The notes beneath the pieces are model-generated. The model made no database searches. It was not told where the DNA came from and saw only the letters and a program-made list of their open reading frames with translations. This document shows positions 2,852-28,198 of a stretch of DNA of 64,000 nucleotides, piece by piece. The position numbers and the translations under genes are program-made. This DNA comes from a virus: positions 1 to 64,000 of the IMG/VR virus record IMGVR_UViG_3300010373_001364; one strand, 5' to 3'. The stretch's first letter is position 1. Every line of letters starts with the position of its first letter.

Positions 2852-3316
2852 ATGGGACAGTTCAAAGAATTCTACGAAGCTTCCGAAGTAGTTGACTCGC
2901 TCAGTAACGTACTTTGCGAACTAGGCGATGAGACAGATTTTGTTGACCGCTTTGGTGGTGGTCTTGGAGACATCGCCAAGGGCGTAGCTAAAGGCGTGGG
3001 TCAGGGTGTAGCATCTCCCTTCCTTGGTCTTTGGCAAGCAGCACGCCGCATGAGGCACGGAAGTAATAATCTGGAAAAGATCGATGCTGATAGGGCATTC
3101 AAGAAGTCCAAAGAAGACTTGCTCAGGTGGTTGATGACTATGGAACCTGATGTGAGAAGCCAGGAGATTAGTAAACTCATTCAGTCACTGGAATCAATCA
3201 AGACCATCAATAACGCCGATCCACAGGCTCGCGATAACTGGTTGAAGAAACTGCTTATGCACGGAACTTATCGTGGTTTTCCTAAGCCAAGCTACAGGAA
3301 ACTGGCAGGAATGTAA
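2852..3316 (+). CDS. Unknown protein
   Basis: 154 residues. The N-terminal half holds a Gly/Ala-rich stretch (FGGGLGDIAKGVAKGVGQGV) that could be flexible or membrane-active. The C-terminal half is helical and charged. No family is recognised. There is no ribosome binding site; a late-promoter octamer ends 5 nt before the ATG, so a leaderless late transcript is expected. A minor virion or late assembly role is inferred only from that promoter. Confidence 0.6.
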   Translation: MGQFKEFYEASEVVDSLSNVLCELGDETDFVDRFGGGLGDIAKGVAKGVGQGVASPFLGLWQAARRMRHGSNNLEKIDADRAFKKSKEDLLRWLMTMEPDVRSQEISKLIQSLESIKTINNADPQARDNWLKKLLMHGTYRGFPKPSYRKLAGM

Positions 3317-4143: not shown

Positions 4144-4725
4144 ATGCACGCACTCTGTTTTAGAGAATGGTTTTTGGAGGATGAGCAAGGTAATGACATC
4201 ATCCCGGTTGGCACGGAGTTCAGAATAGACGTTCCACCCAAATCCGTAATCAGCTTCGACTTTGACGGTACACTTACCAAGTGGAACAAGAAGGGACCGA
4301 ACAACTGGTATGAAGTCCCATTTATCGAAATCATCCGCCGTCTCAAGAAGTGGACGCAGATGGGACACCGTTGCATTATTACCACTCACCGCACCAAGTC
4401 ACTTGAAGGCAATCCCGCTTTCCTCGGTCACGGTAGGGACAAAATGAAAATCCTCGATTTGGTCAAGGATGATGTTCTGCCAGTTGATGCGGGTGGTATC
4501 ATTTATACACACATGGGCGACAAGGGTGAGGTCTTGGCTAATTTGCAGCAAAGAGGTTTGAACGTCGTCATGCACTATGATGACGAAATGAAAAACCTTA
4601 GTTCGGTTGCCAGAGTTGGAATAATTGGCGTCAAGGTAGATCCGGGTCCAGCACCACCTAAATACCATGTGGCGGGCGATGGTCAAACGCCATCTTCAGT
4701 GCAGACACCAGTAATGGCTCATTAA
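4144..4725 (+). CDS. HAD-superfamily phosphatase-like protein
   Basis: 193 residues. HAD motif I is DFDGTLT (about residues 39-45), with both Asp present. A motif-II-like ITTHR is at about 80 and a motif-IV-like HYDDE at about 141. The domain should hydrolyse a phosphomonoester via an aspartyl-phosphate. The small cap and short length resemble phage HAD proteins of unknown substrate. The last 30 residues are a Pro-rich tail. It precedes a dNMP kinase, so a nucleotide-phosphatase role is possible. Confidence 0.7.
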   Translation: MHALCFREWFLEDEQGNDIIPVGTEFRIDVPPKSVISFDFDGTLTKWNKKGPNNWYEVPFIEIIRRLKKWTQMGHRCIITTHRTKSLEGNPAFLGHGRDKMKILDLVKDDVLPVDAGGIIYTHMGDKGEVLANLQQRGLNVVMHYDDEMKNLSSVARVGIIGVKVDPGPAPPKYHVAGDGQTPSSVQTPVMAH

Positions 4726-4730
4726 GGAGA

Positions 4731-5909
4731 ATGATGAAGAGTTTTTATGAGCTTTACAACGAGAGTCGGAAGTATCGTGGCACCGCCTGGATTGCCGTGT
4801 TCCGCCGCACCCCCAAACTGGAAGTCCTTATTGGCTCTCGTAGAAATGATCCTACTGTAAGAGTCCTTCCAGGTGGAAGACTAGACAAGGGGGAGTCTGG
4901 CAAGGATGCCGCCCTCCGTGAATTGGAAGAGGAAACTGGCATCTCCTTGCGCGATCTAACCAAGATCGGTCATTGGGGAAAATGGGGATACCTCTATGCT
5001 CACATTCTTGATAAGGATGTGAGCCTTCGACCCTCTGACGATATCGGTAATCTGAAGTGGTACAGTATTGAAGAACTACCAGACATGGATGAGGAGCATA
5101 AGGAGATGTTGCTCCACGCCATTCAGAAACTATTCAAAGATCGAGTCGAGGAAGTCTACAGCATCATACCTGATGCCATCTTGAATGAGTCAGAGAAACT
5201 TGATTTGAAGGCGAAGCTCAGAGAAATTCTCAAAGAGAAGCCACGCAAGCAATCTGGTCTTCTTATTGTCATCGAAGGTATCGATGGTGCTGGTAAAAGC
5301 ACACAGATCGATGAGTTGGTCGATTGGCTTATGGGACTCAACTATGATGTGGTCCTAAGTAAATGGAACTCCTCAGAGATTATGAAAAAGGCGATCAAAA
5401 AAGGTAAAGAGAAGAGGATGTTGACACCTCTTGTCTACAGTCTCCTACACGTCTGTGATATGGTTGTCCGCTATGAACACGACATCCTACCGGCTTTGGA
5501 TAAAAATAAGATCGTCGTTTGCGACCGTTACATTTATACCTCAATGGCTCGCGATAAGGTGCGTGGTGTAGACATGGACATGCTCAAAGAGGTCTACAAG
5601 GGCTTCCGTGTTCCTGATGTTGTCTTTCGGCTGAAGGTGCCTATTGAAATTGCCTTCACTCGCGTAATTAGAGACAAGGGCTTGAACTACTACTCTGCTG
5701 GTATGGATCTGAACCTGTCTGACAACAAAGAAGAGAGTTGCATTAAGTATGAGGCAATGGTAGACAAGGTTTATGACGAAATCATGAAAGATGTGCCAAG
5801 CTGCGTGACCATTAGCGCCGACAAGTCCATCGAAGAAATCAAGAAGAAGATCAGAGGAGTTCTCGCCAAGAAGTTCGGAATTGGCAAGTGGAAAGATGTT
5901 AAGATATGA
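4731..5909 (+). CDS. Nudix hydrolase - thymidylate kinase fusion
   Basis: 392 residues in two enzymes. Residues 15-135 are a Nudix domain with a complete box (GG at 48-49, RELEEETG ending at 70). Residues 177-385 are a TMP kinase-type P-loop domain: GIDGAGKST at 183-191 and the CDRYIYTSMARD substrate-binding segment at about 258. The kinase would make dTDP from dTMP. The Nudix part could remove a toxic or non-canonical nucleotide or sense NTP pools. This pairing is unusual. ATG 4731 and 4734 are both possible behind AAGGAGA. ThyX is encoded at 42373, so both dTTP steps are present. Confidence 0.85.
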   Translation: MMKSFYELYNESRKYRGTAWIAVFRRTPKLEVLIGSRRNDPTVRVLPGGRLDKGESGKDAALRELEEETGISLRDLTKIGHWGKWGYLYAHILDKDVSLRPSDDIGNLKWYSIEELPDMDEEHKEMLLHAIQKLFKDRVEEVYSIIPDAILNESEKLDLKAKLREILKEKPRKQSGLLIVIEGIDGAGKSTQIDELVDWLMGLNYDVVLSKWNSSEIMKKAIKKGKEKRMLTPLVYSLLHVCDMVVRYEHDILPALDKNKIVVCDRYIYTSMARDKVRGVDMDMLKEVYKGFRVPDVVFRLKVPIEIAFTRVIRDKGLNYYSAGMDLNLSDNKEESCIKYEAMVDKVYDEIMKDVPSCVTISADKSIEEIKKKIRGVLAKKFGIGKWKDVKI

Positions 5910-8518: not shown

Positions 8519-9496
8519 ATGCCGAAACATAACCAAGACGAATGTCTGCCACCTCAAGAAAATCCTAACATCGGTCAGGATGCTACATCTGACCAGTGTT
8601 CCGGTGTTCTACCGCCATCTCTGAAGAACGTCGCGGCAGAAATGCATCCTAAACCAAACCAAAAGGTAGGTTACGGTCACTTCGCCGATTGTGACCCCAT
8701 GCAAACGGGTCAGATCACCGAGAACATGATGAAGGAGCCGGTGCGGACACACGATGGCACCGTTATCTATCGCTACTCCAAGGCAATTCGCGGCGCGGAT
8801 GAAGCCGTCAAAGAGATGTTTAATAACTTGGTCTGCATTGATGAAATGGGCGATGTGGTTCCGGTGCCTATCATTTGGGGCACTCAGGAAAGAGCCGTAG
8901 CTCACGTTTTGCAGAACAACATTCGTCAAGACAGCAGCCTTGTGGTCGTCCGGTTGAAACTGCCCATGTTGTCAATCTACAACAGCGGCATCAGCTTCAA
9001 CCAAGACAGGTACATTTACCACCAGGCTATTGATTACTTCCGAAATATCCGCCCAGACAAAAAACCTGGCTTCACCACAATGGAAAATCGCCATGAACGT
9101 GACACGGTTTTTGGTGTTGCCAGGGGCATACCTATCGACATCAATTACCAGTTGACGGCGTGGACACTTTACGTCGAGGATATGAATCAAATCGTGGAGC
9201 AGGTACTTCTGAAATTCTCCCCTGTTGCATATATACAGGTGCAAGGTGTCCATAATTGGGAAGTCATAGCAAAGCTAGACTCCATTGGCAACAACCTTGA
9301 GACAGAGCCAGGCGACCAACAGTTGAGGTTGGTGAAGTTTCAGTTCGGTATTACCGTTGAGTCCTTCATCCCACAGCCGATTGTTAGGAAGAAGGCTGTG
9401 CTAGACCAGAGGATTGATATCGTCAATGGTCTGAGCGAGGAAGAGATCACGGAAGTGCTGGGCAGATTGGAAAAAACGGTCAGTGACAAAAGTTGA
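8519..9496 (+). CDS. gp15-like tail completion / sheath stabiliser protein
   Basis: 325 residues. After a 75-residue polar extension, the core has IYRYSKAIRGADEAVKEMFNNL, then VPIIWGTQERA, RLKLPMLSIYN and VEDMNQIVEQVLLKFSP. T4 gp15 shows the same order of features (R.P........ED.FQIVEQILPYF). In T4, gp15 caps the tail and links it to the neck. A shorter paralogue lies at 20730. The position just before sheath and tube genes fits. The start follows AAGGA. Confidence 0.7.
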   Translation: MPKHNQDECLPPQENPNIGQDATSDQCSGVLPPSLKNVAAEMHPKPNQKVGYGHFADCDPMQTGQITENMMKEPVRTHDGTVIYRYSKAIRGADEAVKEMFNNLVCIDEMGDVVPVPIIWGTQERAVAHVLQNNIRQDSSLVVVRLKLPMLSIYNSGISFNQDRYIYHQAIDYFRNIRPDKKPGFTTMENRHERDTVFGVARGIPIDINYQLTAWTLYVEDMNQIVEQVLLKFSPVAYIQVQGVHNWEVIAKLDSIGNNLETEPGDQQLRLVKFQFGITVESFIPQPIVRKKAVLDQRIDIVNGLSEEEITEVLGRLEKTVSDKS

Positions 9497-9725: not shown

Positions 9726-12125
9726 ATGGCGATTCTCTTGGGATTCCCACCAACTAATACGATCAGTCCAAGTGTTCGTATTACCGAACTTGACCTTAGC
9801 TTCGTGGCTTCTACCCCTGCTCCGAATATCGCGGGCTTGGTAGGTTTTGCTACGAAGGGTCCGATCAATGTGCCGACCTTGATTACTTCTACTCGACAGT
9901 TGCACAAGGTCTTCGGCTACCCGTTGACGACTTTGACTGCTCCATATCTGATTTATGCAGCGGAGCAGTACCTGTCTGTTTCCACTCAGCTTTATATTGT
10001 CCGTTGCGGCGCAACTGATCCGCTGAGTGGTGACTTGGCGCTAACTGCCGGTATCGAGGTTCCAAGTGCCGGTGGTCCTGTGACCATCGTGTCAAATGCG
10101 GCTTACCCCTATGCACCAAATAACGACAGCTTCTTCCGTTGGAGGTTGAACGGCGCTCTCTCCCAGAAGTTGCTAGTCGTCCTGTCACCAGCCGACCGCC
10201 CCGCTCCGAACACGGGCGTATCTTATGATACTGCTGGCTTGGTAAGTGCCCTGAATGCTCAATTGGTGCCGCAGGATGGTATCACTTTCTACGCCGATCC
10301 AACAACGGGTAACATCGCAGTCAAGACCACTTTCAGCTATGGTCCTACTGCCACGCTTGAATTGGTGTCTGTAAAGAACGCCATGTATGGTCCGACCGTA
10401 ACGGTAAACTCCGGTACTGGTGCTATCACCTTGACCAACAGCGTCTTTGGTTTGGGTTTGGGCATGTTGCCAGCCCAGAACGTCGGTACTTTGAGTAAAT
10501 ACCCGAATAATAGCTACCAGACGGCGGGCACCTACGATCTATCTGGTGTAACGAACCCGAACTTGCAGGTTGTTGTTGATGGAACTGGTTCCAGTGCAAT
10601 TGACCTTGTGGTTCAGACCGTGACTTTGACCGCCAAGTCGTATACGGCAATTACCCTGGCAGCGGCTATCAACAACTATGTGAGTGCCAACCTCCCAGGT
10701 GGCTTCCAGGCATACGTCGTGGGCAACAACGTCGCCTTGACGACGAACAGCAGTGGAAATGATGCCCGCATTTTGGTGAAGTCTTCTAGCACCATCGCCG
10801 CTCTGCTTGGTCTATCCACTGCCACCGTGCTTGGTAGCAGCCCGCAGGGTGCAGCGAGCGATACGACCACCTACAACGATGGTATTGTCACCGGCTCTAC
10901 CAACACGACGAGTGCCGATGTATTCAACTTGACCGCCGAATCTCCTGGTACGACTGGTAACTTAACCCAGGTTGTTATTACCAACAACGTCGCTGCCGGT
11001 AGCTTCAACATTCAGGTTTACTCCAACGGTGCTAACGTCGAGTCTTGGGGCAACTTGGTATTGAACGACCCGACGAGCAGGCTGTACGCCGACGCTTTCT
11101 TGGCTTTGGTTTCCAGCTACGTCCGCACCGTAACCAACACGACTGTGACCGGCTTGCCGGCACCGGGAACTTATTCCCTAAGCGGTGGTACAGACGGTAT
11201 TCCAAGTGATCCAGACTCTCAGGATCAGTTGATCATCGGTAGTGATATCTCTATGACTGGTATGCAGGCTTTCAGCGACCCTGAGCAGGTTGACATCGAC
11301 TTGGTTGCTGTTCCGGGTCATAGCAGCACAGCAGTCGTAACCTCCTTGATCAACCTCTGTGCCCAGAGTCGCCAAGACTGCATGGCAATCATTGATCCCC
11401 CATTCGCCTTCACGGTTGACGAAATTGTTGCATGGCAGAACGGTACTCACCCGTTGAACAATGTTCAATTTGATAGCAGCTATGCAGCACTGTATTGGCC
11501 TTGGGTTAAGGTTCAGGACACCTACAATCAGATCAGTGTCTGGGTGCCACCATCCGGCTCCGTGATTGCAACCTATGTGTTGAACGACCTCCTCGGCGCA
11601 CCTTGGATGGCTCCAGCAGGTTTGAATCGTGGTGCTGTACCTAACGTCGAGGCTGTGTATTCCGCGCCTACCGGCGAGCAGCGTGATGAGATGTACGGTG
11701 GTGTCAACGCCATCAACCCGATCATTCAGTTCCCAGGTACTGTAGGCTTCTACATCTGGGGTCAGAAGACATTGCAGCGTAAGCAGTCGGCTCTGAACCG
11801 CGTCAATGTCCGTCGCTGTATGTTGTACATCGAGAAGACGATCAAGGAACAATCTCGTTTCTTGTTGTTTGAACCAAATGACAGCACCCTTCAGGGTCAG
11901 TTCACAAGGATTGCTGGTCAGGTCTTGGACAATGTTAAGACCCAGCGTGGCTTGTACGACTTCTTCATCAAGTGCGATGCCGAATTGAACACGCCTGATG
12001 TGATTGAACAGAACCAGTTGAGAGCGCAAATTGGTGTACAACCAGTTTACGCCGCAGAATTTATCTTGATTGAGTTCACGGTTAATGCACCGGGAAGCTT
12101 CACTGCACCAGCTAATACCTTCTAA
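9726..12125 (+). CDS. Contractile tail sheath protein (gp18-like)
   Basis: 799 residues. The N-terminus has the sheath pattern SPSVRITELDLSF...NIAGLVGFATKGPINVPTLITS...FGYP. The C-terminal conserved domain shows YAALYWPWVKV, VWVPPSG, GLNRGAV, NAINPI, GFYIWGQKTL, VNVRRCMLYIEKTI and LQGQFTRIAGQVLDNVKTQRGLYDFFIKCD. About 350 residues between are Ser/Thr/Gly-rich inserted domains on the sheath surface. The protein polymerises around the tube and contracts at injection. The Shine-Dalgarno is GAGGGAGA. Confidence 0.93.
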   Translation: MAILLGFPPTNTISPSVRITELDLSFVASTPAPNIAGLVGFATKGPINVPTLITSTRQLHKVFGYPLTTLTAPYLIYAAEQYLSVSTQLYIVRCGATDPLSGDLALTAGIEVPSAGGPVTIVSNAAYPYAPNNDSFFRWRLNGALSQKLLVVLSPADRPAPNTGVSYDTAGLVSALNAQLVPQDGITFYADPTTGNIAVKTTFSYGPTATLELVSVKNAMYGPTVTVNSGTGAITLTNSVFGLGLGMLPAQNVGTLSKYPNNSYQTAGTYDLSGVTNPNLQVVVDGTGSSAIDLVVQTVTLTAKSYTAITLAAAINNYVSANLPGGFQAYVVGNNVALTTNSSGNDARILVKSSSTIAALLGLSTATVLGSSPQGAASDTTTYNDGIVTGSTNTTSADVFNLTAESPGTTGNLTQVVITNNVAAGSFNIQVYSNGANVESWGNLVLNDPTSRLYADAFLALVSSYVRTVTNTTVTGLPAPGTYSLSGGTDGIPSDPDSQDQLIIGSDISMTGMQAFSDPEQVDIDLVAVPGHSSTAVVTSLINLCAQSRQDCMAIIDPPFAFTVDEIVAWQNGTHPLNNVQFDSSYAALYWPWVKVQDTYNQISVWVPPSGSVIATYVLNDLLGAPWMAPAGLNRGAVPNVEAVYSAPTGEQRDEMYGGVNAINPIIQFPGTVGFYIWGQKTLQRKQSALNRVNVRRCMLYIEKTIKEQSRFLLFEPNDSTLQGQFTRIAGQVLDNVKTQRGLYDFFIKCDAELNTPDVIEQNQLRAQIGVQPVYAAEFILIEFTVNAPGSFTAPANTF

Positions 12126-12136
12126 GGAGATGAAAT

Positions 12137-12790
12137 ATGGCAACTAACACTAGCCTTTTTGGTGCGCAACCCACCATTCAAGCGGGGCAAAAAAGGAACA
12201 TGGGTCTGGGTTCTTTGGGACTTGCGACCACCTCTATCAAGAGAAAGTTCCGTTGGACGTTGGTAATTTACCCTTACTGCAATGGTATCGGTCCAGTGGG
12301 TCCGAACTTCTGCAAGGTGGCTTCACGTCCCAACTATGACATTGAGGAGACGGAACTAAACTTCCTTAATGCAAAGACATGGATCGCCGGTAAGTTGACC
12401 TGGCAGTCCATCACGGCGACATTCATTGACGCCGGTGCTGTTGAAATTCAGAACCTGTATATGTGGATTGGAACGAACGCCCGCTTGGATAACAACCAGG
12501 CTTTCTTCCAGGGCACCACATTTCAGGATTACGCAGCCCAGGCAGAGTTGACCCTCTTCACAGGTTGCGGTATGCCGATGGAGTCTTGGCTGCTTGGAAA
12601 CGTATGGCCACAGGCTGTTAACTTCGGTGAATTGGATTACACCTCTTCCGAAGAGGCAACAATTGAATTGACCTTGCGTTACGATAGCGTGAAGTATTTC
12701 AGCTACTGCCCACAGGTCACTTTCGCGTCTTGCTGCAATCCATGCACAGTCGCTCCTGCTACAGGAAATTCCTTGGCTGCCGTTCAGTGA
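12137..12790 (+). CDS. Tail tube protein (gp19-like), copy 1
   Basis: 217 residues. Shared features with the next gene are KRKFRWTLVIYPYC, RPNYDIEE, WQSITATFID, a TLFTGCGMPMESW loop and WPQAVNFGELDYTSSEEATIELTLRYD. This is the gp19-type tube fold that polymerises inside the sheath. It is placed directly after the sheath gene as in T4. The Cys-rich end (CCNPC) is unusual for a tube protein. AAGGAG precedes the ATG. Confidence 0.85.
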   Translation: MATNTSLFGAQPTIQAGQKRNMGLGSLGLATTSIKRKFRWTLVIYPYCNGIGPVGPNFCKVASRPNYDIEETELNFLNAKTWIAGKLTWQSITATFIDAGAVEIQNLYMWIGTNARLDNNQAFFQGTTFQDYAAQAELTLFTGCGMPMESWLLGNVWPQAVNFGELDYTSSEEATIELTLRYDSVKYFSYCPQVTFASCCNPCTVAPATGNSLAAVQ

Positions 12791-12866: not shown

Positions 12867-13517
12867 ATGGGCGTAAACATGGGAATGCACCCCCTTCTTG
12901 TCAAGGGTGGCGATAAGAGAAAGTTCCGCTGGATGTTTAGTATTCAGCCGTATGTTGGGGATCAGGTTTCCATGTTGCCACCTCTTAAGAGCGCACGCCC
13001 CAACGTCTCCTTCAAGGAATACCAAGCCGAACACATTCACGAAACGATTTACTTCCCAGGAAAAGTGGAATGGCAGACGGTAGACTTGTCTTTGTACGAC
13101 ATCAAATGCAAAGAAAACCCCATCTATGAATGGATGAAGCTGATCTACAACCCGGACCCAGATGCACCTTCCGGGTTTGGGGCGACTGGAGGTTTTTATG
13201 GTCCGTCTCTATCTCAACAATCAGGCGGAACACAGTACAAGACCACGGCGCAGGTGACTATGTACAATGGCTGTGGCGATACTCTGGAGACGTGGATCTA
13301 CATGAACGCATACCCCGCTAAGATTGATTGGGGTGATTTGGATATGTCGTCCAACGACCTGACCACAGCAGATATCACTTTGCGTTTCGACAGGGCTTAC
13401 ATACTTCAGAGTACGCCATTCCAACAGCAGGGTGGAGGTGGCGGTGCATTTGGTGCTGCGCCGTCAATTCCCAAAAACTTGCTGTTAAACAACATAGGTG
13501 GAACGGGAGGGTTTTAA
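12867..13517 (+). CDS. Tail tube-like protein, copy 2
   Basis: 216 residues, clearly paralogous to the preceding gene: KRKFRWMFSIQPYV, RPNVSFKEY, WQTVDLSLYD, TMYNGCGDTLETW, YPAKIDWGDLDMSSNDLTTADITLRFD. It ends in a Gly-rich tail. It could be a second tube subunit or a tube-initiator or terminator analogue. A terminator-like hairpin separates it from copy 1. The 3' end overlaps the convergent gene by 4 nt. Confidence 0.8.
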   Translation: MGVNMGMHPLLVKGGDKRKFRWMFSIQPYVGDQVSMLPPLKSARPNVSFKEYQAEHIHETIYFPGKVEWQTVDLSLYDIKCKENPIYEWMKLIYNPDPDAPSGFGATGGFYGPSLSQQSGGTQYKTTAQVTMYNGCGDTLETWIYMNAYPAKIDWGDLDMSSNDLTTADITLRFDRAYILQSTPFQQQGGGGGAFGAAPSIPKNLLLNNIGGTGGF

Positions 13518-14423: not shown

Positions 14424-14612
14424 ATGGAACCCATACAAGTTTTCCTTGAGATGCTCCAGTATCCCAACTCTCCTAAAGTATACAGGTCGCTACGCGACCT
14501 GTATCATCAGATAGGAAAGTCTCATGAATCCAAAGCTTTTTCACATCTTTTGGAAGTGAAATTCAACGAGTTGCCAGATGATAACAACACTGATACTCAC
14601 CAAAGACCATGA
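14424..14612 (+). CDS. Small TPR-like protein
   Basis: 62 residues with one TPR-like helix pair (YRSLRDLYHQIGKSHESKAFSHLLE). GAGGGAAAA precedes the ATG, favouring 14424 over an upstream TTG. It overlaps the next gene by 35 nt in another frame. No family is recognised. It may assist the glycosyltransferase that follows. Confidence 0.5.
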   Translation: MEPIQVFLEMLQYPNSPKVYRSLRDLYHQIGKSHESKAFSHLLEVKFNELPDDNNTDTHQRP

Positions 14613-15543
14613 AGACATCATTCTCTCCACATTAGAAAGTGTCAAAAACCTTGGTCCTATCTTAATTGCCGATCTCGGCAGCAAGGATGAAACACGATCC
14701 GTTTGTGAAAGTACGGGTGCCAAAGTATACAACACACCTTTCAACTACAACTATAGTGCCATCCGCAACAATCTAGCAGCAAAAGCCACTACAGAGTGGT
14801 TGTTTTGGCTTAATCCCGGCGAGCTTCTTGCTTCCGGTCATGAGTATTTCGAGATCGAAAAGCCCGATCCCATGTATAGGGTAATGGTCCTCAAAGACGA
14901 TCTCCTCATGAAACAATCTCGTCTTTTTAGAAAAGGTGTAACAAAGTTTGTAAAGCCGGTCTTTGAGGAAATGGAGCCAGACCTTTCTGAGCAGACACTT
15001 CCCATTGTGATAACAGGGGAAGAGAAGTCTGATCACAAAACAATCACTGACTGCATTTTAAGATGGAGAGATAAAGAACCACTATCACCAGAACCCCTCT
15101 ACTACACCGCCTGTTTACAACTCATGTCCAGGCAGTATGAGCAGTTCCTTGGTACGGCTGAGCAGTTCTTGTTCTTGAAAAGAGGGATTGACGCAAGTGT
15201 AGTATTGACAAAGTATTACATAGCGTCCCTGGTGAGGAAAAGAAATGTGGGCAAGGCACTCCAGTTGACCTTGGAGTGCCTTGCCGCCTACCCTCTGATG
15301 GCAGAATTCTGGTGTATGTTAGGCGATTTATACCTGTTCTTCATCAAGGAGTATGACAGGGCGTACCAGTTTTACGAGAACGCAGTGATCCTTGGCAGTC
15401 AACGTCTGGCTGAGGACACGATGCCGATGGAAATAAGCAAGTACGATGAGTATCCGAAGCGGATGATGGCGGCGATTCAGCAGGTGATCCGCAAGGTCGT
15501 CCAAGTAGATAAAGATTCCTTAAGTGAAGACATAGAAACGTGA
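14578..15543 (+). CDS. GT2-family glycosyltransferase with C-terminal TPR-like region
   Basis: 321 residues. The N-terminal 130 residues are GT-A: MITTLILTKDHEDIILSTL, ILIADLGSKDETRSVCE, YSAIRNNLAA and EWLFWLNPGE, the last being the DxD-like metal site region (here NPGE). The C-terminal 150 residues are helical repeats (ALQLTLECLAAYPLMAEFWCMLGDLYLF). This layout resembles SunS-type enzymes that glycosylate peptides or proteins. The acceptor and sugar are unknown. The 3' end is overlapped antisense by the next gene. Confidence 0.7.
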   Translation: MITTLILTKDHEDIILSTLESVKNLGPILIADLGSKDETRSVCESTGAKVYNTPFNYNYSAIRNNLAAKATTEWLFWLNPGELLASGHEYFEIEKPDPMYRVMVLKDDLLMKQSRLFRKGVTKFVKPVFEEMEPDLSEQTLPIVITGEEKSDHKTITDCILRWRDKEPLSPEPLYYTACLQLMSRQYEQFLGTAEQFLFLKRGIDASVVLTKYYIASLVRKRNVGKALQLTLECLAAYPLMAEFWCMLGDLYLFFIKEYDRAYQFYENAVILGSQRLAEDTMPMEISKYDEYPKRMMAAIQQVIRKVVQVDKDSLSEDIET

Positions 15544-18430: not shown

Positions 18431-19732
18431 ATGACCGACGACATCTTCCAGCAGCGTCCGGCTATCAACCCACATGAGTTCGACGGGGGTGGCACTGACG
18501 ACGAGGGCAGTGTTGATGCAATGAAGGCTCACCTGCAAGCTGGTATGCAAGCAGCGACGCCAACTCCCTCTACACCACCGCCACCTGTGCAAATGACCGG
18601 AAAGATTCCACCGCAGGTCCAGGCAGCAATGAATCAGCCACAGTTTGCCAATCATCCATTAAACCAGCCACAGACTTTCCAGCAGCAGCAACCACAGCAG
18701 CAGCAACCACAGCAGCAGCAACCACAGCAGCAGCCAATGCAATTTAGACAGGACGATGTTCAGTTGCCACAAGCCATGTCAGACGCCCAGGCAATGTATC
18801 AAAACGCCCGTAAGTTGATGGCTCAACAACAGGATCAGCAGCAGCAACCACAGCAGTTTAACCCTGCCTCCTTCAATCCTCAACAAATAGTGCAGCAGAA
18901 CAAGTACAGCGAGTTCAAAGACCCGCGTTTTGAAGAGGTCATGGACAGGTTGACTCGAAGGGCTGGAAACTTCAGCGAGATCGAGCTTCCATCCAAGGGC
19001 AAGTTCTATCTACGGGGCGAAGGTCCGTCCAATGGCATATTGCACATCCGCCCAATGACAGGTAATGAGGAGCAGATTCTCACCACGCCGCGTTATGTCA
19101 AGAAAAACCAGTCTTTGAACATGATTTTCAAGGAGTGCATTGGCGAACAGATCAACCCAGACCTGTTGTTGTCTGAGGACCGCACCTATCTGTTGATCTT
19201 CCTGCGTGGTATCAGTTACTCACCGCTTTATGATGTGGAAATCAAGTGCCCAGAGTGTACCAAGACCTTCCAGAATCAGATTCACCTGGGCGGCTTGGAC
19301 GTAAATTACTGTCCAGATGACTTCGGACCAAGTGATCTTGTGGACACCTTGCCGAACTCTGGCTTAAAGGTCCAGTATCGGCTCTCTACGGGTCGTGATG
19401 AAACCGTAATTCAAGAACACAGGGAAGACAGAATCAACAAGTGGGGTGCGGATGTTACTGATGACACCACCTTGTTCCGTTCTGCGTTGTTGATTGAAGA
19501 AATTGAGGGCATCACCAACAAGCTTATGATCCAACAGATCGTTAGCCGATTGCCAATTGGCGACATGGCTTACCTTCGTGAGCTTCTGAATGAACCGCCG
19601 TTTGGTGTCGATACGAAGATTGGTATCATTTGCCCCCATTGTTCCCATGAGTTCAAGGTTGATATGCCTATGGAACTCAGTTTTTTCTTCCCCAAGCCGA
19701 ACTTACAGAAGAAGAAAAAGCAGCAGGCGTAA
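18431..19732 (+). CDS. Baseplate hub subunit, gp26-type (T4_baseplate family)
   Basis: 433 residues. The first 150 are disordered and Gln/Pro-rich with a tandem QQQQP repeat. From about 165: EIELPSKGKFYL, LHIRPMTGNEEQILTTPRYVK, LLLSEDRTYLLIFLRGISY, and two zinc-ribbon CxxC pairs (CPECTKTF at about 277, CPHCSHEF at about 398). These match the T4-type baseplate hub family that includes gp26. The gene ends in a slippery T-TTT-TTC site (19681-19687), allowing a longer fusion product. AAGGAG precedes the ATG. Confidence 0.8.
   Translation: MTDDIFQQRPAINPHEFDGGGTDDEGSVDAMKAHLQAGMQAATPTPSTPPPPVQMTGKIPPQVQAAMNQPQFANHPLNQPQTFQQQQPQQQQPQQQQPQQQPMQFRQDDVQLPQAMSDAQAMYQNARKLMAQQQDQQQQPQQFNPASFNPQQIVQQNKYSEFKDPRFEEVMDRLTRRAGNFSEIELPSKGKFYLRGEGPSNGILHIRPMTGNEEQILTTPRYVKKNQSLNMIFKECIGEQINPDLLLSEDRTYLLIFLRGISYSPLYDVEIKCPECTKTFQNQIHLGGLDVNYCPDDFGPSDLVDTLPNSGLKVQYRLSTGRDETVIQEHREDRINKWGADVTDDTTLFRSALLIEEIEGITNKLMIQQIVSRLPIGDMAYLRELLNEPPFGVDTKIGIICPHCSHEFKVDMPMELSFFFPKPNLQKKKKQQA
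18680..18735 (+). repeat. Tandem 15-bp repeat coding for QQQQP
   Basis: The unit CAGCAGCAGCAACCA is repeated 3.7 times inside the disordered N-terminus of the hub gene. It is likely to vary in copy number by slippage. Confidence 0.85.
19681..19687 (+). other. Programmed -1 frameshift site (candidate)
   Basis: T-TTT-TTC lies exactly in the X-XXY-YYZ phase of the hub reading frame. The -1 frame is open from a TGA at 19660-19662 to a TAA at 19948-19950, so the shift must occur between 19663 and the zero-frame stop at 19730. A second weaker site, G-AAA-AAG, is at 19714-19720. Confidence 0.65.
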
Positions 19733-19950
19733 TACCAGAAGAGAAGGCTGCGTTTGTTGCTGGAGAGAATCTCAGAGAGGAGATATTTTTCTTCATGTAT
19801 CACATGAATATCCCGAAGAGGGATGTCATGGAGTTGGAACCGGAGGAGAGGAAGTGGATGATCCACCGTTTCGTGGAACAGAAACGCAAAGAGAACGAGG
19901 AAATCGAAAGAGCTAAGGCGAAAGCCAAGTCGCAATCCAAACACAAGTAA
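19687..19950 (+). CDS. Frameshift extension of the hub protein (tail-assembly chaperone-like)
   Basis: The -1 frame encodes 87 residues beginning LPQAELTEEEKAAGV and including NLREEIFFFMYHM and ERKWMIHRFVEQKRKE. The only ATG is at 19795, inside the segment that aligns with the small protein at 20192 (DLEDVFFLQYHL...ERRWIIDRFIEEKK). The homologous part therefore starts upstream of any start codon. This supports synthesis as a hub-chaperone fusion of about 506 residues by -1 frameshifting; an internal start at 19795 (51 residues) is the alternative. The start coordinate given is the shift point, not an initiation codon. Confidence 0.65.
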   Translation, partial: LPQAELTEEEKAAGVIPEEKAAFVAGENLREEIFFFMYHMNIPKRDVMELEPEERKWMIHRFVEQKRKENEEIERAKAKAKSQSKHK

Positions 19951-19959
19951 GGAGAAGAA

Positions 19960-20190
19960 ATGTCAAAGGAAAAGAAGAAGTTGAAAGGCGTGGTGGTGTT
20001 TTACATCGACGTGGGGCAGTTACCACCCAAGAAGGCTCAAGAGTTTGTTGATAAACTCCGAGAGCAGAACAAGGAGTTCCTTGATTCTCTGCCAGAAGAT
20101 GTTGGTGAATTGTGGTTGCCTGTGCGCAATGGCAACACCAGGGTAGAGTCACTATCTTTATGTGGTTGGGGATGTCCAGAAAGCAACTAA
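19960..20190 (+). CDS. Small conserved-looking phage protein
   Basis: 76 residues: a basic start, then VVVFYIDVGQLPPKKAQEF, a helix, and ELWLPVRNGNTRVESL. The VFYIDVGQLPP..A motif is one I associate with small proteins of large phages, without known function. AAGGAGAAGAA precedes the ATG. It sits within the baseplate module. Confidence 0.6.
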   Translation: MSKEKKKLKGVVVFYIDVGQLPPKKAQEFVDKLREQNKEFLDSLPEDVGELWLPVRNGNTRVESLSLCGWGCPESN

Positions 20191-20191
20191 C

Positions 20192-20350
20192 ATGACAAAC
20201 GAAAAAGACCTGGAAGACGTATTCTTCCTGCAATACCACCTTGGCTGGAGTCTTCAATCTATCAAGGCTATGAAGCCTTGGGAGAGAAGGTGGATAATCG
20301 ACAGATTCATCGAGGAAAAGAAAAGGCAAAGAGGTAAAGATGGGGAGTAA
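20192..20350 (+). CDS. Small protein paralogous to the hub frameshift extension
   Basis: 52 residues: MTNEKDLEDVFFLQYHLGW, then ERRWIIDRFIEEKKRQ. It aligns with the -1 extension of the hub gene at the FF.YH and ER.W.I.RF.E.K blocks. Likely a baseplate assembly chaperone. It starts 1 nt after the preceding stop and overlaps the next gene by 11 nt. Confidence 0.6.
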   Translation: MTNEKDLEDVFFLQYHLGWSLQSIKAMKPWERRWIIDRFIEEKKRQRGKDGE

Positions 20351-20729: not shown

Positions 20730-21239
20730 ATGGGTGATTTCCACGAAGAAGGCAAGGTCTATAAGTATTGTAAGTTACTCCGCAAGACAGACGAGGCGGT
20801 CAAGAGCCTATTCAGCGATCTTGTAGTGGTAAATGAAGAAGGTGATGCACATAAGGTTCCCTGCATATGGGCTGATTATGAGAAGACGAGAGCGTACCTT
20901 GAACAAGGGTCAAATGAATTGAATCTGGATGGCACTCTCAAAATCACCGATAAAATCAAAGCCAGGTTGCCACTAATAAGTGTTTACAGCACTGATATTA
21001 CCATGCCGGCTTCTTTGCCGGTGGTTGGCTACACTGTAAACATCAAAACCCTGTTCCAAGAGGACATGAACCAAATTCTTGAACAGATAATCTTGAAGTT
21101 TGACAACAAGAAGAACTGTAAATTGGCTGGTGTTGCCCGCAATTACAGCGATGGCGAAGTATCTCAACTCAGGGTGCTACAGTCCACATTCGGCATTACC
21201 GTGGAAGGAATTGGCGTGCCGGTGGAAACCCATGAATAA
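20730..21239 (+). CDS. gp15-like protein, short paralogue
   Basis: 169 residues. It shares with the gene at 8519 the blocks YKYCKLLRKTDEAVKSLFSDLVVVNEEGDAHKVPCIWAD, KARLPLISVYST and EDMNQILEQIILKF. It lacks the N-terminal extension. It may be the true tail terminator, with the longer copy having another role, or the reverse. It lies in the baseplate block and is followed directly by a late promoter octamer. Confidence 0.7.
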   Translation: MGDFHEEGKVYKYCKLLRKTDEAVKSLFSDLVVVNEEGDAHKVPCIWADYEKTRAYLEQGSNELNLDGTLKITDKIKARLPLISVYSTDITMPASLPVVGYTVNIKTLFQEDMNQILEQIILKFDNKKNCKLAGVARNYSDGEVSQLRVLQSTFGITVEGIGVPVETHE

Positions 21240-26697: not shown

Positions 26698-26707
26698 CGG
26701 GGTTTTG

Positions 26708-28198
26708 GTGTACACAAACATACTTAGTCAATTTCTTGAACGATCAGAGTCCAACCGCGTAAAGATTGCAGTAGTTGGCGACTCGATGATTGATGAATAC
26801 TACGCCGTCAGGGTGAACAGAGTGTCTCCTGAGTTCCCAATACCCGTCCTCCTTTCAGAGGATGACAAGCCCATCAGTACCGTCCCAGGAGGTGCTGCCA
26901 ACGTCTGTTATCAAATGAAATACTGGAACGCAGACGTACACCTCCTGAGCGTCCTGACCGACACAGGCTCTCCTACCATTACGTCCCACAACTTCAACTG
27001 CGATTATTCCGTGACGCTGAAGGATGGCTGGAAGATGCCGAGGAAGAAGCGATTCTATGACGGCGACTTTCCACTAGACCGTTGGGATGTGGAAGCCAAA
27101 GGCTCATTCAGAACAAATACTCCAGAATGGTCTGAGGTTCGGCGTAAACTACTTAACAACTTCACCCAGATGGTGAAGAATGTGAAGCCCGATATCGTAA
27201 TTCTTAGCGACTACGGCAAGGGCGTTTTTGTGAGCGGTTCAGAGAACATTTCACGGATGCTTATTGAGTTTTGTGCCAGGAAAGACATTCCCGTTATTGT
27301 GGACCCCAAGTCAATTAGTACCGAGTTGTGGTCCGGTTGCACTGTGATCAAGCCAAATGCTGATTGGGCAAAGGCTTTCTGTAACAAATATGCCGAACAC
27401 CTTGATACCTTAGAAGATTACATGGAGTACATCTCCCAAGCACTCTTTGCCCAGGAGGTTGTCCTCACTCGCAGTGGCGATGGCGTAGGCATTCACGACC
27501 GATACAAAGAGGAGACAGATTTTTACCCTTCTGCTTTCCTCTCCAAAAAGCGACCCATCATCCGTAGCGTCATAGGCGCTGGAGATTGTTTCTGTGCCTT
27601 CTTCGCTATGGCGAAAGCCCTTGGTATCCCTCTGAAAGGAGCCGTATCGGTAGCCTTCAATGGCTCCAGTGCTTACATCGAGGACAAGCACAATTCCCCG
27701 GTGACTCCCTATCGATTCCAAAAGTGGTTCGACCCCATTGGTGCCAAGAGGGTGTCCTTGGAAAAGCTCTTGGCGATTAAGAAGCAAACACCAAACCAGA
27801 CTTGGGTATGGACAAACGGCTGCTTTGATATCATGCACGCTGGTCATTTGAAGACCTTTGAAGAAGCCAAGAAGTTAGGTGACAAGTTGATTGTTGGCAT
27901 CAACACTGATGAAAGCGTAAAGATGCTGAAAGGTGACAATAGACCGATTTTACCCTATAATCAAAGAGAAGCACTGATATCTAGTCTAGAGCATGTTGAC
28001 TTCGTAGTACCCATCAGCGACAAGAAGCCGGGAGGCATTATTAGACAATTGATGCCCAACATGATTGTGAAGGGTGGTGACTACAAGGTGGAGGAGATCG
28101 ACGGTTGGGAAGTGGTAGGCAAAGACAACGTGTACACCGTATCTTTGCTGCCCGGCGTGTCTACCAGTAAGATCATCGAGAGGATTAAAAATGGATGA
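26708..28198 (+). CDS. hldE: HldE-like bifunctional heptose kinase/adenylyltransferase
   Basis: 496 residues. Domain 1 is a PfkB/ribokinase-type sugar kinase (KIAVVGDSMIDEYY, PGGAANV, VILSDYGKGV, GAGDCFCAFFAMA at about 294). Domain 2 is a nucleotidyltransferase with TNGCFDIMHAGHL (about 370) and GDNRPILP...R. HldE makes D-glycero-beta-D-manno-heptose-1-phosphate and then the ADP-heptose precursor used in LPS core. A phage copy suggests modification of virion or host glycans. TTG at 26705 or GTG at 26708 may start it. Confidence 0.85.
   Translation: MYTNILSQFLERSESNRVKIAVVGDSMIDEYYAVRVNRVSPEFPIPVLLSEDDKPISTVPGGAANVCYQMKYWNADVHLLSVLTDTGSPTITSHNFNCDYSVTLKDGWKMPRKKRFYDGDFPLDRWDVEAKGSFRTNTPEWSEVRRKLLNNFTQMVKNVKPDIVILSDYGKGVFVSGSENISRMLIEFCARKDIPVIVDPKSISTELWSGCTVIKPNADWAKAFCNKYAEHLDTLEDYMEYISQALFAQEVVLTRSGDGVGIHDRYKEETDFYPSAFLSKKRPIIRSVIGAGDCFCAFFAMAKALGIPLKGAVSVAFNGSSAYIEDKHNSPVTPYRFQKWFDPIGAKRVSLEKLLAIKKQTPNQTWVWTNGCFDIMHAGHLKTFEEAKKLGDKLIVGINTDESVKMLKGDNRPILPYNQREALISSLEHVDFVVPISDKKPGGIIRQLMPNMIVKGGDYKVEEIDGWEVVGKDNVYTVSLLPGVSTSKIIERIKNG

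Follow-up and report, generated by a model that had tools for sequence, protein, structure and literature searches.

The T4 gp26-like gene at positions 18431..19732 raises two linked questions: whether a ribosomal slip near its 3' end adds a second, longer protein to the one that the reading frame predicts, and whether such a gene belongs to the baseplate hub, as its database name has it. The window, i.e., the whole stretch of DNA that was analysed, comprises 64,000 nt of the 176,115-base IMG/VR virus record IMGVR_UViG_3300010373_001364. The comparisons described below indicate that the gene very probably encodes a tail assembly chaperone (TAC) of the lambda G/GT type, of which a long form is made by -1 ribosomal frameshifting.

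The frame-0 gene and its slip site

The frame-0 gene (18431..19732, plus strand) begins at ATG 18431, ends with the TAA stop at 19730..19732 (plus strand) and encodes a short form of 433 aa, which is T4 gp26-like and is the proposed TAC-N. It matches PF12322 (E 5.7e-15) and phrog_150, annotated as "baseplate hub" (E 1.5e-16). A long Q/P-rich N-terminus lies ahead of the PF12322 domain, which spans residues 186-419 (18986..19687, plus strand) and ends exactly at the slippery heptamer T_TTT_TTC (19681..19687, plus strand). Checked against the frame of the 18431-19732 gene, the heptamer is in phase, the sequence reading AGT TTT TTC TTC CCC; the frame-0 protein continues for 14 codons beyond it, the site being located 46 nt before the stop. 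Among the ATG-started ORFs of at least 150 codons on both strands of the window, T_TTT_TTY was found at one of 40 Phe-Phe pairs, namely the 19681 site.

Conservation of the heptamer among related phages

When viral sequences were scanned with the window protein by itself, no relative came up, and ten distant members, once aligned, had diverged too far to serve as a scan query. The query used was an alignment of the window protein with its relative in the 595-kb phage record LR756511, which gave 204 finds, with 80 loci in the window group; identity to the window protein is 48-57% for the 20 close relatives that entered the structure alignment. The in-phase T_TTT_TTY is present at the same codons in 159 of 159 distinct sequences from three groups (65/65 in the window group, 78/78 in the cyanophage-type group and 16/16 in the jumbo/KVP40-like/CC2-like group), these sequences being related and not independent trials, with unconstrained synonymous sites well mixed at such divergence. 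The first Phe codon is always TTT and the second is TTC in 157/159 sequences and TTT in two, while the residue preceding the pair can be N, S, G, D, A, H, Y or R, its third base always being T. Elsewhere in the window-group genes both Phe codons are common (330 TTC vs 308 TTT).

Comparison of the site in relatives had been proposed as a check of the original prediction of a frameshift at 19681-19687, and it bears the prediction out: with the window included and duplicates removed, TTTTTTC is in phase at the same codons in all 64 distinct close relatives, and no close relative lacks the heptamer. In these sequences, 31-76 nt separate the first T of the heptamer from the frame-0 stop, and in 33 of the 64 the open stretch of the -1 frame starts just 6 nt upstream of the site.

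TTTTTTC was likewise detected in eleven jumbo phages, Phosso, Vibrio 2.275, PA5oct, Munch, CBB, GAP32, 121Q, RaK2, SCTP-2, RAS14 (here TTTTTTT) and XaC1, in all of which the -1 frame opens at the heptamer or shortly before it. The heptamer is also present in XacN1 (TTTTTTT), Atu_ph07 and LR756511, as well as in cyanophage S-SSM7, Aeromonas phage Asswx_1 and Vibrio phage PC-Liy1, and scans with cyanophage and Vibrio genes recovered it in 79/79 distinct loci. A genome scan with A2 found it in one contig of a Neisseriaceae MAG, probably phage sequence; a genome scan with the SP-15 gene found nothing. Judged from these alignments, the slip site is fixed across several lineages of large phages. Sequencing error as the cause of the frame change is ruled out, since the layout recurs in more than 150 distinct sequences.

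The -1 frame extension and a second copy of its domain

The -1 extension (19687..19950, plus strand; CTT at 19687 to TAA at 19948-19950) encodes a gp51-like C-domain and would give the long form, TAC-NC, with the junction MELSFFLPQAEL; the predicted junction peptide of the long form in the window is MELSFFLPQAELTEEEK. Reading in the -1 frame is uninterrupted between 19663 and the stop at 19948-19950, with no ATG/GTG/TTG ahead of the ATG at 19795, which is within the conserved domain; all of this agrees with the coordinates originally given for a frame open only from 19663 and free of start codons before 19795. Beyond the frame-0 stop, the median pN/pS of the -1 frame is 0.11 in the window group and 0.22 in the cyanophage-type group, and the other two frames carry stops over the extension in nearly all sequences. 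The extension is coding and under purifying selection in the -1 frame. The consensus of the domain in the window group is like EEIFFFQYHM...RKWMIERFIEQKEKEN.

Regarding translation starts, the suggestion that relatives might have a separate start codon for the extension, named at the outset as a finding that would speak against a frameshift, holds for some of them: among the 64 close relatives, 34 have at least one ATG, GTG or TTG between the site and the domain, 28 have none and two were not scored. In most cyanophage-type phages a possible start codon follows soon after the site.

The C-domain occurs a second time as a stand-alone protein of 52 aa, encoded from ATG 20192 at 20192..20350 (plus strand). 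The protein matches an HMM of the extensions (E 1.3e-10), aligns with them in hhalign (98.4% probability, E 1e-14) and matches phrog_634 (E 4.5e-4). The HMM and hhalign results confirm that the likeness of the extension to this small protein begins before 19795, as had been noticed from the sequence. With the 52-aa copy as query, a viral scan returned no relative, and within the window group, with flanks of up to ~3 kb, a stand-alone C-domain near the gene was present in 1/82 loci, that of the window alone. The copy has its own ATG and lies directly after the ORF at 19960-20190. A weak, below-cut-off match of the 20192 protein to DUF6760 (PF20546, E 5e-5) hints at a counterpart outside phages.

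The C-domain would be made twice, as the extension and as the free protein at 20192-20350, and two tail tube paralogs are encoded; the free copy might be a third chaperone product of a three-component system, either setting the ratio of long to short form or serving the second tube protein. Such a role appears doubtful, and the arrangement was not seen near the gene in any relative examined.

Family identity: chaperone or hub

T4 gp26 matches PF12322 over residues 1-206 of 208 (E 8.8e-64) and T4 gp51 over residues 1-201 of 249 (E 3.9e-52); as both are PF12322 proteins, gp51 consists of a gp26-type domain plus ~48 residues and the two are paralogs. The window gene is thus homologous to gp26 and to the PF12322 part of gp51. 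The C-terminal residues of gp51 are homologous to the cyanophage -1 extension (hhalign, 97% probability, E 2.2e-11), and phrog_634 matches the cyanophage extension (E 2.5e-26) as well as residues 147-246 of T4 gp51 (E 1.2e-23). For the window-group extension, divergence is too great for a direct match to gp51 (hhalign E 0.09), and only the 20192 copy bridges the two.

An AlphaFold model of the window PF12322 domain had a pLDDT of 84.7. Foldseek gave no significant match for this model or for that of a T4-type gp51. In a second structure comparison, the window-domain model aligned with YqbN (Z 6.0, rmsd 3.9, 83 aligned residues), the HK97 tail assembly chaperone (Z 5.3, rmsd 5.3, 90 aligned) and 5ir0, a protein of a Vibrio cholerae PICI-like element (Z 4.9), all other matches having Z of 3.1 or less; for the T4-type gp51 model, the HK97 TAC ranked fourth (Z 3.7). 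The YqbN entry is titled merely "protein yqbn" and is presumably a prophage tail chaperone homologue. With Z below 8, the modelled likeness to YqbN and the HK97 TAC is supportive of a chaperone fold and does not amount to proof.

In the phages SP-15, LIS04 and Flavobacterium immuto the gene is located between the tail tube gene, annotated in immuto as a tail completion protein, and the tape measure gene, which is the position of a chaperone. In the literature, gp26 and gp51 have been tabulated as hub assembly chaperones in a paper that also cites genetic work placing gp26 in the hub (PMC3004832). A structural role of gp26 in the baseplate hub, with the long form as a minor variant of the hub protein, is suggested by this older genetics, by the database name and by the annotation of the CBB gene as a structural protein; it nevertheless appears unlikely in view of the same paper's table, the fold likeness, the tube and tape measure neighbours in the three phages above, and the TAC assignment published for T4-like phages, as it is cited in PMC10885494 and PMC12846349. 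Most likely, the family of gp26 and gp51 is none other than that of the tail assembly chaperones, and the label "baseplate hub" is probably wrong. If so, the locus would represent a G/GT-type system and not a frameshift in a structural hub gene. The original prediction had read the locus as a gp26-type gene with a -1 frameshift recalling gpG/GT but set in a hub gene. The invariant heptamer, the selected -1 frame and the PF12322 match support the frameshift and the gp26-like identity, and the likeness to gpG/GT stands, whereas the hub part is made improbable by the paralogy of gp26 and gp51, the PMC3004832 table, the fold and the gene order in SP-15, LIS04 and immuto.

Phages with other layouts

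Phages T4, 44RR, the RB49-like G5211 and the pseudo-T-even EC-F2 encode the short and the long protein in two distinct genes (26 and 51, respectively) and do not have the heptamer. A third layout was detected in SP-15, LIS04, GXN1, Mel-JY01, Flavobacterium immuto, LR756508 and RM378, in which a frame shifted by +1 (or -2) stays open through the end of the gp26-like gene and encodes a similar small domain (C-domains of loci L002 at 3757, L003 at 3721, L004 at 3733, L005 at 3775, L006 at 3697, L008 at 3706 and L116 at 3173). By inspection, YTT_TGG is found just before the stop in Mel-JY01, immuto and RM378, and NCC_CGA just before the stop in SP-15, LIS04 and GXN1. These two motifs are possible +1 frameshift sites and would cover six of the seven loci of this layout.

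Proposed mechanism and alternative routes to the long protein

In the proposed mechanism, translation of the 18431-19732 gene would yield the short chaperone TAC-N, in the role of gp26/gpG, while a minority of ribosomes would slip back by one base on U_UUU_UUC (19681-19687) and read on to 19950. The slip would be a tandem one of two tRNA-Phe, from UUU/UUC to UUU/UUU, giving MELSFFLPQAEL and hence the long form TAC-NC with its added C-domain, in the role of gp51/gpGT. By analogy with lambda, the short form may coat the tape measure protein and the added domain may recruit tail tube subunits.

Regarding stimulators of the slip, RNAalifold on 18 close relatives detected only weak long-range pairing downstream of the site (-3.6 kcal/mol, 1/11 pairs compensatory) and no conserved structure, and the 73 nt following the site in the window fold at a z of -1.6; no downstream stimulatory structure is claimed. 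A Shine-Dalgarno (SD)-like stimulator was looked for in the window and none was found. In 77/78 cyanophage-type phages a GAGGG-like element is located ~9 nt upstream of the slip site (locus L117 at 3150-3190; L120-L199), in which the Glu codon is GAG in 70/78 vs ~30% background, so that the element is kept by codon choice. It recalls the stimulator of this kind in dnaX.

The main alternative route to the long protein is transcriptional slippage, whereby RNA polymerase adds or drops a U on the T6 run and the same protein results without a ribosomal slip. The run of six T, extended to seven in XacN1 and RAS14, would allow for this, but polymerase slippage has no need of the exact X_XXY_YYZ phase with TTC as second codon in 157/159 sequences, six T is a short run for it, and the process is considered very improbable here. 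Slightly lower still is the standing of a scheme without any frameshift, in which the C-domain is a separate protein made from an internal or coupled start, the assumption behind the annotated gp51 genes of cyanophages: many relatives have an ATG or TTG soon after the site, S-SSM7 is annotated with a separate gp51, and the window has its stand-alone copy at 20192. Against this, the window and the 28 close relatives mentioned above have no start codon ahead of the domain, the invariant heptamer would serve no purpose, and the T4 long form is a true fusion. Next to no probability is given to chance or to a constraint on the protein alone, by which the heptamer would merely follow a conserved Phe-Phe; although the two Phe residues form a motif that is conserved across the family, both the codon choice and the preceding third base are fixed while synonyms are common elsewhere in the same genes, none of ~77 other FF pairs in the cyanophage-type group is T_TTT_TTC, and phages of the +1 and two-gene layouts mostly do not have the heptamer. 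This explanation is rejected by the FF counts in the window (1/40) and in the cyanophage-type group. Ribosomal -1 frameshifting on the heptamer is thus the preferred reading.

Comparison with known systems

The slip sequence of lambda is G_GGA_AAG and differs from that of the window, whose phage, unlike lambda, is of the contractile-tail kind; the two systems are likened by layout. What they have in common is a -1 frameshift near the 3' end that joins a short chaperone to a C-domain in an overlapping frame (PMC5009743). The gpE/E' of P2, also named in the original prediction, is, like the proposed window product, a frameshifted chaperone in a contractile-tail phage, with a higher frameshift efficiency reported (PMC5009743), and is likened by layout. 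The TAC locus of Pakpunavirus Adele/Andersonviridae, also that of a myovirus, has a T-rich -1 motif near the TAC-N end (PMC12846349), reported as GTTTTT vs T_TTT_TTC in the window, and here too the likeness is one of layout; the -1 shift in Adele was argued from a -1 frame open in all genomes (PMC12846349).

Closest to the window are the T4-like gp26 and gp51, with which it shares the PF12322 family, short and long forms and the poly-T -1 signal reported for TAC-N; T4 and other T-evens, however, use two genes where the window has one gene with a slip site, plus an extra stand-alone C-domain. The tail assembly chaperone genes of T4-like phages were identified by Vladimirov, Gautam and Davidson (2022; Virology 566:9-15, PMID 34826709), as cited in PMC10885494 and PMC12846349. 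According to the respective passages of these papers, frameshifting is replaced in some T4-like phages by a pair of genes, a short one and a long fusion (the PRFect paper, PMC10885494), and the TAC-N genes of T4-like phages are known to carry poly-T signals for a -1 shift (the Adele paper, PMC12846349). By these statements, the principle is already published, and apparently so is T4's solution with two genes. Since gp26 and gp51 are both PF12322 proteins and have the two-gene layout, they would be the published TAC genes. In the open literature searched, no description was found of the uncultivated large-phage clade, the breadth of U_UUU_UUC, the SD-like element, the +1 variants or the extra copy, some of which Vladimirov et al. 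(2022) may cover.

These comparisons point to a widespread mis-annotation, in that the PF12322 genes named "baseplate hub" in jumbo phages, cyanophages and uncultivated large phages are most likely genes for tail assembly chaperones, most likely with an unannotated frameshift product whose C-terminus is the next "hypothetical" or "gp51" ORF. With three layouts in one family (one gene with a slip, two genes, and the +1 frame), these phages would provide a tractable case of recoding gained, lost or replaced. A review of recoding from 2016 described G-T frameshifting as conserved in long-tailed phages "except T4" (PMC5009743).

Neighbouring genes in the window

Profile matches show T4-like tail genes in the window. 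These include a sheath gene (9726-12125), two adjacent tail tube paralogs (12137-12790 and 12867-13517; phrog_4542) and two sheath-stabiliser-like genes (8519-9496 and 20730-21239; phrog_227/T4 gp15). The tube genes are ~5 kb upstream of the 18431-19732 gene and separated from it by genes on the reverse strand; no tape measure gene was recognised beside that gene within the window. Among the other genes, a single ORF at 4731-5909 has a NUDIX-like N-terminus fused to a thymidylate-kinase-like C-terminus (phrog_1198 and phrog_761). Genes possibly involved in sugar metabolism were detected at 4144-4725 (phosphoheptose isomerase or polynucleotide kinase-like), at 14578-15543 (glycosyltransferase-like) and at 26705-28198, the last of these with a heptose kinase/adenylyltransferase-like C-terminus.
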